Of a stretch of DNA of 50,909 nucleotides, positions 3,943 to 16,224 are shown one piece after another. Under the pieces are notes generated by a model. That model did not search any database, was not told where the DNA came from, and worked only from the letters and a program-made list of their open reading frames with translations. Source of the stretch: a virus; IMG/VR virus record IMGVR_UViG_3300048583_000161, positions 1-50,909 of that record. One strand, 5' to 3'. Each line of letters starts with the position of its first letter. The stretch's first letter is position 1. A program made the translations under genes and the position numbers.

Positions 3943-3971
3943 ATTATACCCTGCCAGCCTCGTTAGTTAAA
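3943..3971 (-). promoter_or_regulatory. sigma70-like promoter
   Basis: TTTAAC (3966-3971), 17-base spacer, TATAAT (3943-3948). Its -35 overlaps the stop codon of the nicotinamide phosphoribosyltransferase gene. It drives the 3217-3903 and vWA genes. Confidence 0.7.
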
Positions 3972-5391
3972 CTGCACAGCGTGCGCGGACTTCAGCGAGG
4001 GTGGTCGGGTTATACAGGACGCCCTTGTCGTAGACCGTTACCATCAGGTCTTCGAACTCGGCATTCAGTTCGCCATTGCCAGTGAGAGTAAGAACTTCAC
4101 CAGTCATGCGGCTGCGTACCAGGGTCATGCGACCTTCCTTCGACTTCTTGCCAGGATCGGTAATCGGATCCTTCGAGATGCCAATCCAGCGCTCTTCATC
4201 TCCTTCCTTCACTCGAATAGCACTGGCCTTCTGCGCGAACTTGTAGGTGTCGCGATTCACCTTCTGGAGCAGAGCACCGCCACTACCAAACACGACGTTG
4301 TCTGCGGCATATCCCATGTCAGCGATCTTGTTCAGGAGCTTGCGAATTGCGTCATGATCGACGCCATCGCCCTGGAGGATGCCAACGTAGTTGACCTTCT
4401 TGAAGCCCATGGCGTTGACAGTGGTACCGAAAGTTGCAGCCTGCATCTCGAGGATGCGGATGACGGTCTCCATCATGTCGCCGCTGTCAGGGCGGAAAAC
4501 CAGCTTCACGCCGCTTTCGATGACTTCATCGCGGAGCGTGGTGCAGATTGCGGTAGCTGCGCGGTAGACATCGTAGCCATCGATGACGATCGAGACGATG
4601 CCGCCCTTGCGACCAAGGTTCTTGATGACGTGGCGGATGTATTCGATCTCTTCAGCCGGGCTGGCACCGAACGAGCATTCGACGCTGTGCTCGGTAGCCG
4701 GCACCGAGAAGGCCGCCATCGTTTCGCTGTAGTAGAAGTTTGCAGCGCGGACACCTTCGATGGTATCCGAACCCATGAAGTTGACCAGGTGGGCAGCACC
4801 ACCGATTTCAGCCTGCTCGCTGCTCGTGACACCGCGGCCGCCGAAGTCGTGCAGTGCAAAGGGCAGCATGTTGAGGTCTGCGCCAGTGCGGTCGTAGATG
4901 TCCTTGAGGTCGCGCTTGATCAGGTAGTCCATCGAGGCGATGGTGGTGGGATACCAGATACCGCGGAGAAGGGCCGTCTCGATGTAGCTCGTCAGCCAGA
5001 AGACTTCGTTGTCATCGCACTCGATGGTGACGATGGCGTTGCCACTGCGTACCGGAGTACCTTCACGCACTGCCCGAATCTTAAGGGGCAGATAGCCGTT
5101 GTACTTCTCGACGATGTACTCCCACTTGCTGCGATCGAACGGTTCGCCATGGAGAGCAGCGAAGGTTTCAGCTTCGTCGATGTGGGCAGTCGTGACCTGG
5201 ATGGTCAGGAACTTGCGGAGGAACATCTGCATGCCGAAGGGAACGATGATGTCGTTGCCCTTGGTGCGTGCTTCGATGTACGAGAACATGCCGGTGACCT
5301 TCTTCGGATATGCGAAGGCATGCGAGAGCTTGTAGCTGTCAACGGCGAGGATGGGATTGTAGCTGAGAACGTTGAGGTTGTTGCTGTTCAT
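3967..5391 (-). CDS. nadV: nicotinamide phosphoribosyltransferase (NadV/NAMPT)
   Basis: Converts nicotinamide and PRPP to NMN, the first step of NAD+ salvage from nicotinamide. At 474 aa it matches the family. Signature segments include LHDFGGRGVTSSEQAEIGG, the SVPATEHSV segment with the catalytic His, the PRPP-contacting RPDSGDM, and GSGGALLQKVNRDTYKFA. It is the second gene of an operon with the NMN adenylyltransferase (5449-6525). The 57-base gap between them has no clear promoter but holds the palindrome at 5420-5436. AAGGAG lies before the ATG. Together the two enzymes rebuild NAD+ from the nicotinamide released by NAD-cleaving defence systems. Confidence 0.95.
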   Translation of the reverse strand: MNSNNLNVLSYNPILAVDSYKLSHAFAYPKKVTGMFSYIEARTKGNDIIVPFGMQMFLRKFLTIQVTTAHIDEAETFAALHGEPFDRSKWEYIVEKYNGYLPLKIRAVREGTPVRSGNAIVTIECDDNEVFWLTSYIETALLRGIWYPTTIASMDYLIKRDLKDIYDRTGADLNMLPFALHDFGGRGVTSSEQAEIGGAAHLVNFMGSDTIEGVRAANFYYSETMAAFSVPATEHSVECSFGASPAEEIEYIRHVIKNLGRKGGIVSIVIDGYDVYRAATAICTTLRDEVIESGVKLVFRPDSGDMMETVIRILEMQAATFGTTVNAMGFKKVNYVGILQGDGVDHDAIRKLLNKIADMGYAADNVVFGSGGALLQKVNRDTYKFAQKASAIRVKEGDEERWIGISKDPITDPGKKSKEGRMTLVRSRMTGEVLTLTGNGELNAEFEDLMVTVYDKGVLYNPTTLAEVRARCAV

Positions 5392-5419
5392 GATAAGCTC
5401 CTTATCAAGTGAAGTTGAC

Positions 5420-5436
5420 CTAGGATCGATTCCTAG
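5420..5436 (-). promoter_or_regulatory. CTAGG palindrome, copy 1 (upstream of nadV)
   Basis: Minus-strand CTAGGAATCGATCCTAG lies 28 bases before the nadV ATG. It can form a 5-bp stem with a 7-base loop. A near-identical copy precedes nadM. It is either an operator or a 5'-UTR RNA element shared by the two NAD genes. Confidence 0.6.
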
Positions 5437-5448
5437 ATGTGTTGCGAT

Positions 5449-6525
5449 TTAAAGACGGGCGTACAGGGTGCTCAGAATCGAGTGGTGATCTTCGAACCAC
5501 TTTTCGGTTCTGTTGAGTGCTTCGTTGATCGGCAGCCACATGACCTTCTGGACTTCACCCTTTTGCGGCTTGGTCTTCGGCAGCGGCTTCGTGTCGTCGA
5601 GGCGGAGGAGGAAGCCGGTAGTGAGAGTGCGACCACGAAGGCTGCGATCTGGGTTGTCGAAGATTTCCTTGCTCTTGATCGAGCCATAAAGCTGAGCCTT
5701 CGACAGCTCGATTTGGGTTTCCTCGATGAGCTCACGAACAGCACCGTCAACGAGACGTTCATTCTGCTCCAGAAAGCCACCAGGAAGAGCCCACAGACCG
5801 CGACCAGGGAAGTTGTCGCGAACCACCACCAGCACATGACCAGACTGGATGACGCAAGCATCGACCGTGTTGAAGGTCACGGGATGCGGAGCGACCTTCC
5901 AGGCTTCTTTGTACGAAGCAATGAAGTCGTATTCATTGCAGAGATCGCCATACTCGGCAGTGTCCATGAAGTCCGTGAGGAATTCGATGGTGACGCCCGG
6001 CAGAAGGTCTGCCTGCGGGATGCGCTCCTCGCCGAAGTAGATGTCGCGAACCTTCGTGGCACTCATGTTGAGCGCTTCCTTGTTCGTGATGAGGTCCATC
6101 TTGAAGAAGGTGCCGAAGGTATTCAGGTAGTAGGTCGAGTGGTCGCGATTCGAACCGGTCAGATACACGGTAGGATTGAGGCCGATGCGATCGACCATGG
6201 CGAGCTTCGTGCGATCGACTGCATCCTGGACTTCACGAATCCATGCGGCCTCGTTGTAAGGCTGGTCGTGAAGGGGTTCGATCGCGAGGTTGTAACGGAG
6301 ACCCTGGCTTGCGGCGTACTCGATGACGAAGTTGCGAACGAGGTTCGCGCGTTCATCGTACGTGAAGGGGTTCTTGGTGGTGCGAGCCTGACCAGCCGAA
6401 CCAATCAGGATGAGGACAGCCTTCGAAGAGTGCAGCGCACGCTTCAGAACTTCTGCATGTCCGAGATGGAATGGCGAGAATCTGCCGATGAAGACCGTGA
6501 GGTCCTTTGTTACGTTCGTGTCCAT
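5449..6525 (-). CDS. nadM: bifunctional NMN adenylyltransferase / Nudix hydrolase (NadM-Nudix)
   Basis: Adenylates NMN to NAD+; the fused Nudix domain probably hydrolyses ADP-ribose or related nucleotides. The N-terminal Rossmann nucleotidyltransferase domain has the HxGH motif (HLGH, residues 20-23) and SATKVRD, the counterpart of ISSTxxR. The C-terminal half carries a Nudix box, GGFLEQNERLVDG followed by AVRELIEET, matching Gx5Ex7REUxEE. Length (358 aa) fits the NadM-Nudix architecture known in KVP40-like phages and in bacteria. It is first in the NAD operon, with a promoter at 6595-6623 and a palindrome in the leader. With NadV it makes the NARP2-type NAD+ reconstitution pathway. Confidence 0.93.
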   Translation of the reverse strand: MDTNVTKDLTVFIGRFSPFHLGHAEVLKRALHSSKAVLILIGSAGQARTTKNPFTYDERANLVRNFVIEYAASQGLRYNLAIEPLHDQPYNEAAWIREVQDAVDRTKLAMVDRIGLNPTVYLTGSNRDHSTYYLNTFGTFFKMDLITNKEALNMSATKVRDIYFGEERIPQADLLPGVTIEFLTDFMDTAEYGDLCNEYDFIASYKEAWKVAPHPVTFNTVDACVIQSGHVLVVVRDNFPGRGLWALPGGFLEQNERLVDGAVRELIEETQIELSKAQLYGSIKSKEIFDNPDRSLRGRTLTTGFLLRLDDTKPLPKTKPQKGEVQKVMWLPINEALNRTEKWFEDHHSILSTLYARL

Positions 6526-6558
6526 ACTGGCTCCCAGTAGGTTAGGTGATTAGACAGG

Positions 6559-6575
6559 CTAGGTTCGTTTCCTAG
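6559..6575 (-). promoter_or_regulatory. CTAGG palindrome, copy 2 (upstream of nadM)
   Basis: Minus-strand CTAGGAAACGAACCTAG, differing from the nadV copy at two of 17 positions. It lies 33 bases before the nadM ATG and about 12 bases after the predicted transcription start, inside the leader RNA. An extra G-C pair flanks the stem. Confidence 0.6.
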
Positions 6576-6587
6576 CTGTTCTGAAGT

Positions 6588-8395: not shown

Positions 8396-8432
8396 TTAAC
8401 TATTGGCCCTTGATGATGTAAGACTAAAGAAA

Positions 8433-8454
8433 GGAGGGACCTTTCGATCCCTCC
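8433..8454 (-). terminator. terminator of the tmRNA gene
   Basis: A perfect 7-bp stem, GGAGGGA / TCCCTCC, with an 8-base loop is followed on the minus strand by TTTCTTT. It lies 40 bases after the tag stop codon and ends the tmRNA transcription unit. Confidence 0.8.
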
Positions 8455-8622
8455 CTCCGACCGTTCGGTTACAAGGTGGTTAGCCTCGTGAGGTTTACGC
8501 CGCTAGGCGAAGGTCCTCATATACGCTGTCGTTTGCAGGTATAGGTTTTCTGCTGCTTAGGGCAGTCAGCTGTCCCGTCGCGCCTATTCTCTCCGCAACC
8601 CTGTCGAAGCCTGGGCAGGCCC
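8455..8622 (-). ncRNA. tmRNA coding piece (5' tRNA half, pseudoknot region, tag frame)
   Basis: Starts GGGCCTG followed by CAGGCTTCGAC, matching the tmRNA D-arm region (GGATTCGAC in E. coli). Downstream GGGACAG / CTGCCC forms a hairpin, and ATAGG (near 8587) can pair with CCTAT just before the resume codon, consistent with a PK1-type fold. The resume codon GCA is at 8536-8534. The 3' end is uncertain and placed before the terminator. Confidence 0.88.
8495..8536 (-). other. tmRNA tag-peptide reading frame
   Basis: Fourteen codons GCA...TAA encode ANDSVYEDLRLAA. The start (AND) and end (LAA) match proteolysis tags recognised by ClpXP. The ending RLAA resembles rhizobial tags such as ANDNYAEARLAA (recalled, not searched). 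Confidence 0.92.
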
Positions 8623-8775
8623 ATCAAAAAGAAACTGGATTGAATCGAAAGGCTTTTCAAAAATCGCCTTCGGAATGTATGGGCAGTAGATGTACGACGT
8701 CATGTTTCCGTTTTCGTCATAGGTGACGGTAGGAACCATCTTGTCGTCAAACCAGCATGTGCCCATGTCAATCAT
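8584..8775 (-). CDS. small ORF inside the tmRNA intervening segment, 63 aa
   Basis: An ATG at 8775 lies 13 bases after the CCA end of the acceptor piece and has AAGGAAA in good ribosome-site position. The frame runs through the whole intervening segment, and its last ~13 codons overlap the 5' tRNA half of the coding piece. The first ~50 residues (DDKMVPTVTYDENGN, YIYCPYIPKAIFEKPFDSIQ) look like a folded domain rather than random translation. Translation and RNA processing would compete on the same transcript. No family recognised; it may be a passenger or spurious. Confidence 0.45.
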   Translation of the reverse strand: MIDMGTCWFDDKMVPTVTYDENGNMTSYIYCPYIPKAIFEKPFDSIQFLFDGPAQASTGLRRE

Positions 8776-8787
8776 TGAATTTCCTTT

Positions 8788-8851
8788 TGGTGGACCTGGC
8801 GGGAATCGAACCCGCGTCCAAGATCCATTGAGTTTAGTCGAATTACGACGA
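8788..8851 (-). ncRNA. tmRNA acceptor piece (3' tRNA half)
   Basis: About 64 bases from the predicted transcription start to an encoded CCA. It has a small hairpin, GTCG-TAATT-CGAC, then GGACGCGGG leading into the T arm (8815-8799), and the acceptor strand CAGGTCC plus ACCA. GGACGCGGGTTC is the same string as in the E. coli ssrA 3' end. Confidence 0.9.
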
Positions 8852-8857
8852 TATGAA

Positions 8858-8886
8858 ATTGTAACACGTAAACAGGAAAATGTAAA
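8858..8886 (-). promoter_or_regulatory. sigma70-like promoter of the tmRNA gene
   Basis: TTTACA (8881-8886), 17-base spacer, TACAAT (8858-8863). The predicted start near 8851 sets the 5' end of the precursor. Confidence 0.78.
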
Positions 8887-16209: not shown

Positions 16210-16224
16210 GCTAGACGTTCTAGC
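16210..16224 (-). promoter_or_regulatory. CTAG hairpin in a leader, copy 3 (divergent)
   Basis: Minus-strand GCTAGAACGTCTAGC makes a 5-bp stem and lies a few bases after the predicted transcription start. It shares the CTAG-AACG-CTAG pattern with the elements before nadM and nadV but is shorter. It could be a 5'-end mRNA stabiliser. Confidence 0.4.

Follow-up and report, generated by a model that had tools for sequence, protein, structure and literature searches.

The DNA analysed here, a 50.9 kb stretch from an IMG/VR virus record (hereafter the window), carries on its minus strand two NAD genes, nadM and, after a gap of 57 bases, nadV. The former (5449..6525, ATG at 6525) encodes a 358-aa NMN adenylyltransferase fused to a Nudix domain (Pfam CTP_transf_like and NUDIX), and the latter (3967..5391, ATG at 5391) a 474-aa nicotinamide phosphoribosyltransferase (Pfam NAMPT_N/NAPRTase). 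An initial annotation had pointed to a similar 17-bp palindrome in front of each gene, CTAGGAATCGATCCTAG in the nadV leader (5420-5436, minus strand) and CTAGGAAACGAACCTAG in the nadM leader (6559-6575, minus strand), and we found both as described, identical at 15 of 17 positions and lying 28 and 33 bases upstream of the respective start codons. These are the only two matches to the pattern CTAGGAANCGANCCTAG in the window; searched exactly in IMG/VR, the same pattern matched at least 120 stretches and was uninformative on the element. The promoter that had been assigned to nadM is weakly supported, the candidate being a single extended -10-like match (TTTACT-17-TAGAAT with TG, 6623-6595, minus strand), no more than chance expects.

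Each palindrome corresponds to an RNA hairpin, so that the initial annotation had recognised the first half of the structure; the functional unit, however, consists of two hairpins, and the second, which bears the Shine-Dalgarno sequence, had been overlooked. In the nadV leader, hairpin 1 (AUCUAGGA-AUCGA-UCCUAGGU, 5418..5438, minus strand, pentaloop AUCGA) lies within the 57-nt gap between the two genes and folds alone with a predicted energy of -8.2 kcal/mol, while hairpin 2 (UGAUAA-GGAGC-UUAUCA, 5391..5407, minus strand, -4.2 kcal/mol) presents the Shine-Dalgarno sequence in its loop (5397-5401) and uses the A of the AUG as the last base of its 3' arm. The nadM leader repeats this arrangement: hairpin 1 (GCUAGG-AAACGAA-CCUAGC, 6558..6576, minus strand, -8.3 kcal/mol) has an AACGA core with an A.A apposition at the closing position, and hairpin 2 (UACUG-GGAGC-CAGUA, 6525..6539, minus strand, -5.2 kcal/mol) again carries the Shine-Dalgarno sequence in its loop (6530-6534). 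All four hairpins fold independently, and the two hairpins 2 are the longest Shine-Dalgarno hairpins (at least 4 bp, before an ATG) in the window. The window holds 38 copies of the tetranucleotide CTAG where 114 are expected, about a three-fold depletion, yet four of these copies fall in the two hairpins 1. A further CTAG hairpin, reported at 16210-16224, does exist but is not the same element, as its minus-strand loop, AACGT, misfits and no Shine-Dalgarno hairpin follows it. The window also contains a permuted, two-piece tmRNA gene (8404-8880, minus strand, tag ANDSVYEDLRLAA) matching the Rfam families tmRNA_permuted and beta_tmRNA; one related contig (L008) has a permuted tmRNA as well, at 1797-2143, and another (L018) a one-piece tmRNA.

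Relatives of NadV in IMG/VR mostly have nadM just upstream, and their leaders show the same two-hairpin architecture with entirely different stem letters. What is conserved is thus a two-hairpin RNA, and the CTAGG letters that had been taken for the element are incidental to this phage. Examples of hairpin 1 in the relatives are CUAGAG-AUAGA-CUCUAG, GGUUGAG-AACGA-CUCAACC and GCCGAAC-ACCGA-GUUCGGC, and of hairpin 2 GAUAA-GGAGC-UUAUC, UACGA-GGAGC-UCGUA and AUAGG-GGAUU-CCUAU. From 144 non-redundant copies, collected with a descriptor that demanded A, G and A at positions 1, 4 and 5 of loop 1, this loop has the composition A (100%), U (81%), A (94%), G (100%), A (100%), that is, an A-N-A/C-G-A (ANMGA) pentaloop, closed by a G-C pair in 88% of the copies on a stem that covaries freely. 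Hairpin 2 follows about 11 nt downstream, abuts the start codon and holds the Shine-Dalgarno sequence in a pentaloop of its own, which reads G, G, A (97%), G (75%), Y over the same 144 copies (types GGAGC, GGAGU and GGAUU) and is closed by an A-U or a G-C pair. The two loops lie 18-31 nt apart, mostly 20-26, the spacer between the hairpins is poor in G (10%), and hairpin 2 by itself is marginally stable (median predicted fold energy about -3 kcal/mol).

The initial annotation had proposed shared control by an RNA hairpin or by an operator, and had suggested comparing the leaders of related phages for covariation. In that comparison the element is present, paired and covarying: both sides change in 10 of 11 pairs, with a score of 1.167, compared with 0.23 after shuffling and no more than 0.17 when the partners were slid. 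As this alignment had been chosen for good stems, a test without stem selection weighs more, and here the flanks of the loop heptamer GANMGAC pair in nad leaders at frequencies of 0.94, 0.92, 0.69, 0.67 and 0.75 (n=226, stems unselected) and elsewhere at about 0.39 (n=1,383). These data bear directly on the operator half of the proposal, a DNA palindrome recognised by a transcription factor (of NrtR or NadR type, for example). The two copies in the window do share their palindromic letters, but across the 144 copies the pairing is kept while the letters drift (100 distinct 5-nt stem arms), the conserved part is an asymmetric loop whose orientation to the gene is always the same, and the nadV copy is itself part of the transcript, separated by a few bases from the Shine-Dalgarno sequence. 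A DNA operator is therefore not supported, and we regard it as very improbable; the RNA half of the proposal is strongly supported by covariation, gene specificity and spread through phages and bacteria. A chance palindrome or a duplication within this genome, as the 15 of 17 identical positions in the window might suggest, is refuted by the relatives, since the same architecture in different letters occurs in 167 distinct leaders and in only 1 of 9,740 shuffled ones.

The element is tied to a defined set of genes. In 2.14 Mb of the relatives' contigs, which are jumbo-phage DNA, a strict descriptor gave 16 matches, all 16 before nadM or nadV. A looser descriptor applied to the fetched loci matched 204 of 489 nad leaders (a redundant set) against 35 of 5,900 other ORFs, with the single match among 9,740 shuffled leaders given above. 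Inspection showed most of these 35 to be mis-framed nadV or nadM; the genuine other genes included nadA, two pnuC genes, a 152-aa gene, five genes immediately upstream of nadM and a 98-aa gene whose end lies just before nadM. A pattern survey of the whole of IMG/VR returned 124 matches, 90 of them with a paired hairpin 1; 82 of the 90 precede nadV or nadM, and four more precede families seen directly upstream of nadM or genes just before nadM. In whole bacterial genomes the clear covariance-model matches (E below about 0.02) all lay at the nadM-nadV locus, in 11 of 18 genomes, and the weak ones (E 0.6-4.8) mostly had no gene behind them, among those inspected. Counted by itself, the Shine-Dalgarno hairpin 2 precedes 270 of 407 nad genes in a non-redundant set, compared with 63 of the 2,967 other ORFs. 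We found two phage nadA genes, both with hairpin 2 and one with a clear hairpin 1; pnuC genes closely related to the element-bearing ones have the element or a variant, and more distantly related phage pnuC genes have no element. These genes also lie near nadM: NadA (quinolinate synthase) is encoded at L394:2414-3304 and in L561, and PnuC (NMN/NR transporter) at L398:379-1086 and L434:417-1070, with the element in the nadA or pnuC leaders of L394, L398 and L434. With its covarying structure and its attachment to genes of one function, the element qualifies as a conserved cis-regulatory RNA.

Three phage protein families of unknown function are encoded directly upstream of nadM, often behind a two-hairpin leader: phrog_12218 (L571, L576, L594, L289 and L401), phrog_33851 (L435, L581, L669 and L647) and phrog_1843 (L375, L399 and probably L591). 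Their genomic position makes these proteins likely candidates for NAD-related functions. In another record (L380; G370:C1:14829-17342) nadV is split in two at about residue 239/240, and the two parts are separated by some 1.1 kb, the pattern that an intron, an intein or a homing-endonuclease insertion would produce.

A single uniform descriptor identified 167 distinct elements, of which 107 are from IMG/VR, 4 from GenBank phages and 56 from bacterial chromosomes, alignment-based searches having contributed about 160 phage and 80 bacterial loci. The bacterial carriers include Burkholderia, Paraburkholderia, Xanthomonas, Stenotrophomonas, Lysobacter, Dyella, Caulobacter, Methyloversatilis, Thiothrix and Thiolinea, together with an Oleibacter MAG and a Xenococcaceae cyanobacterium MAG. 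Among cultured phages, Xanthomonas phage LucasX and Synechococcus phages B23 and BUCT-ZZ01 have the element, and Ochrobactrum phage OC has a loop variant of it. A covariance search of 299 Pseudomonadota found it in the query genome only, which is partly explained by strict filters that score few candidates, and a search of IMG/VR with the NadM protein alone gave no matches. The presence of the element in bacterial chromosomes ruled out one candidate explanation, a target for a GGAG nuclease like RegB of T4.

Many nad leaders have hairpin 2 without a recognised hairpin 1, and in those lacking the ANMGA hairpin a variant loop often occupies its position (AGUGA, GUAGU, GCAGU, GUAGA, GGAGA, GGAGU or GGGGU). 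Several of these, GGAGA and GGAGU among them, are identical to loop-2 types, which points to a common module behind the two hairpins. Four further loci (L472, L498, L500 and L514, from Aestuariispira, Rhodospirillales, a Proteobacteria MAG and Variovorax) have nad leaders in which hairpin 2 is accompanied by a different upstream hairpin, with loop GGAUC or GUUGA, common to the nadM and nadV leaders; these are possibly further variants of the element. Leaders with hairpin 2 alone would also fit a constitutive device, in which part of the structure acts by itself to set a fixed low rate of initiation or to protect the message, with no sensing. We consider this unlikely, as a device lacking a specific effector would hardly account for the conserved ANMGA loop or for an occurrence confined to NAD genes in several phyla.

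How the two hairpins might be read is constrained by what they lack. Kissing between the loops could involve at most 2 nt of complementarity, which is not above chance, and pseudoknot pairing between spacer and loops was the same as with shuffled spacers. An intrinsic terminator was also sought, and a T-run follows hairpin 1 in just 2 of the 144 copies. Since the nadV copy lies between co-oriented genes with no terminator U-run, we infer that control is exerted at the initiation of translation. The products of nadV, nadM, pnuC and nadA converge on NAD(+), which makes feedback by the end product the simplest signal. On these grounds the element is best read as a leader RNA through which NAD feeds back on translation, most likely an OFF-riboswitch of a new NAD(+) class, a proposal to which we give slightly better than even weight, and one that probably lowers protein production when NAD is plentiful. 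In this scheme, abundant NAD(+) or a related nicotinamide nucleotide would bind the hairpin pair and lock hairpin 2, so that the Shine-Dalgarno sequence would be masked; a drop in NAD(+), such as an NAD-depleting host defence would cause, would let hairpin 2 open and NadM and NadV be made. The low predicted stability of hairpin 2 would be weak enough for such switching. The main weaknesses of the riboswitch model are the few conserved unpaired bases and the missing pseudoknot pairing: about 3-5 such bases are found in loop 1, and loop 2 doubles as the Shine-Dalgarno sequence, which seems little for an aptamer recognising a dinucleotide.

NadV (autogenously), NadM or another RNA-binding protein might bind both hairpins, repress translation and read the level of NAD, an alternative that we judge less probable than not. 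Proteins that bind hairpins typically do so at sites with very variable stems and a short loop that is conserved, the two loops look like one module (both have G at position 4, and GGAGA and GGAGU occur in both), and a dimer gripping two similar pentaloop hairpins would account for the tandem design. Nearly all element-bearing genomes also encode NadV, which is present in every element-bearing phage record above 65 kb tested, the exceptions being fragments of 65 kb and smaller; this co-occurrence leaves room for autogenous control by NadV, a metabolic enzyme with no RNA-binding role to our knowledge. NadM fares less well as the regulator, as the nadV copy is intact in Lysobacter pythonis, in whose draft genome no fusion was found, and in Xanthomonas albilineans, which retains only a Nudix remnant of NadM. 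CsrA/RsmA sites resemble the element in that a hairpin loop containing GGA covers the Shine-Dalgarno sequence and that two sites are closely spaced, but GGA occurs in none of the 144 loops of hairpin 1, and of 11 bacteria with the element 5 have no CsrA, including Burkholderia, Caulobacter, Methyloversatilis and the cyanobacterium. Both NadM autoregulation and CsrA are thus disfavoured. The unrelated hosts, the absences of CsrA and the persistence of nadV copies without an intact NadM lead us to favour direct sensing by the RNA over a dedicated protein.

Three known riboswitches invite comparison with the element. In the NAD(+)-I riboswitch (nadA motif), two similar domains stand in tandem before an NAD gene and the second includes the ribosome-binding site (PMC7297122, PMC7708056). 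The element shares this tandem layout, and its targets include nadA; however, the NAD(+)-I domains are bulged stem-loops with ACANCCCC, whereas the element consists of simple pentaloop hairpins, and the ACANCCCC bulge occurs in none of the 144 copies. The NAD(+)-II riboswitch (pnuC motif), whose description comes from Streptococcus pnuC, contains a pseudoknot (PMC7749635, PMC10085692). Like the element, it exerts translational control over an NAD-precursor gene with the ribosome-binding site in the fold, and pnuC is among the targets of the element, which differs in having no loop or spacer pseudoknot pairing and in occurring in other taxa and at other genes. The element's gene set of nadM, nadV, nadA and pnuC therefore includes the targets of both known NAD(+) riboswitches. 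Guanidine-II (mini-ykkC), for which a kissing interaction between P1 and P2 has been proposed (PMC7544219), is similar in scale, with two small hairpins joined by a short linker before a start codon, but its genes are not those of NAD metabolism and the ANMGA and GGAGY loops of the element cannot kiss by base pairing. Its ACGR loops are likewise not found in both hairpins here, NACGR being present in 8 of 144 copies of loop 1 and loop 2 being GGRNN. The covariance models of Rfam 15, among them that of NAD(+)-I and, if the library includes it, that of NAD(+)-II, gave no match over the nad leaders of the window, the phages or the bacteria up to E 5-10. The open-access literature on NAD riboswitches, orphan riboswitches and nadV/nadM motifs yielded NAD(+)-I and NAD(+)-II only, and a survey of viral NAD systems, in which phage NadV and NadM counter NAD(+) depletion, makes no mention of riboswitches, UTRs or translational control. 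With neither an Rfam match nor a description in the open-access literature, the element apparently represents an undescribed family of regulatory RNAs in the leaders of NAD genes, in phages and bacteria alike.

We see an even chance that this family is a third class of NAD(+)-sensing riboswitch, common to bacteria and phages, in which one small pentaloop-hairpin module occurs twice and its second loop carries the Shine-Dalgarno sequence; in phages it would turn the NAD-rebuilding pathway on when host defence drains NAD(+). Through the element, uncharacterised small phage proteins encoded in the same operon are marked out as probably NAD-related, and control of nadV and nadM becomes directly testable in a short reporter construct. 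If the RNA does sense NAD(+), it would be a third and very small class of NAD riboswitch, and a possible sensor coupling a phage counter-defence pathway to NAD depletion.
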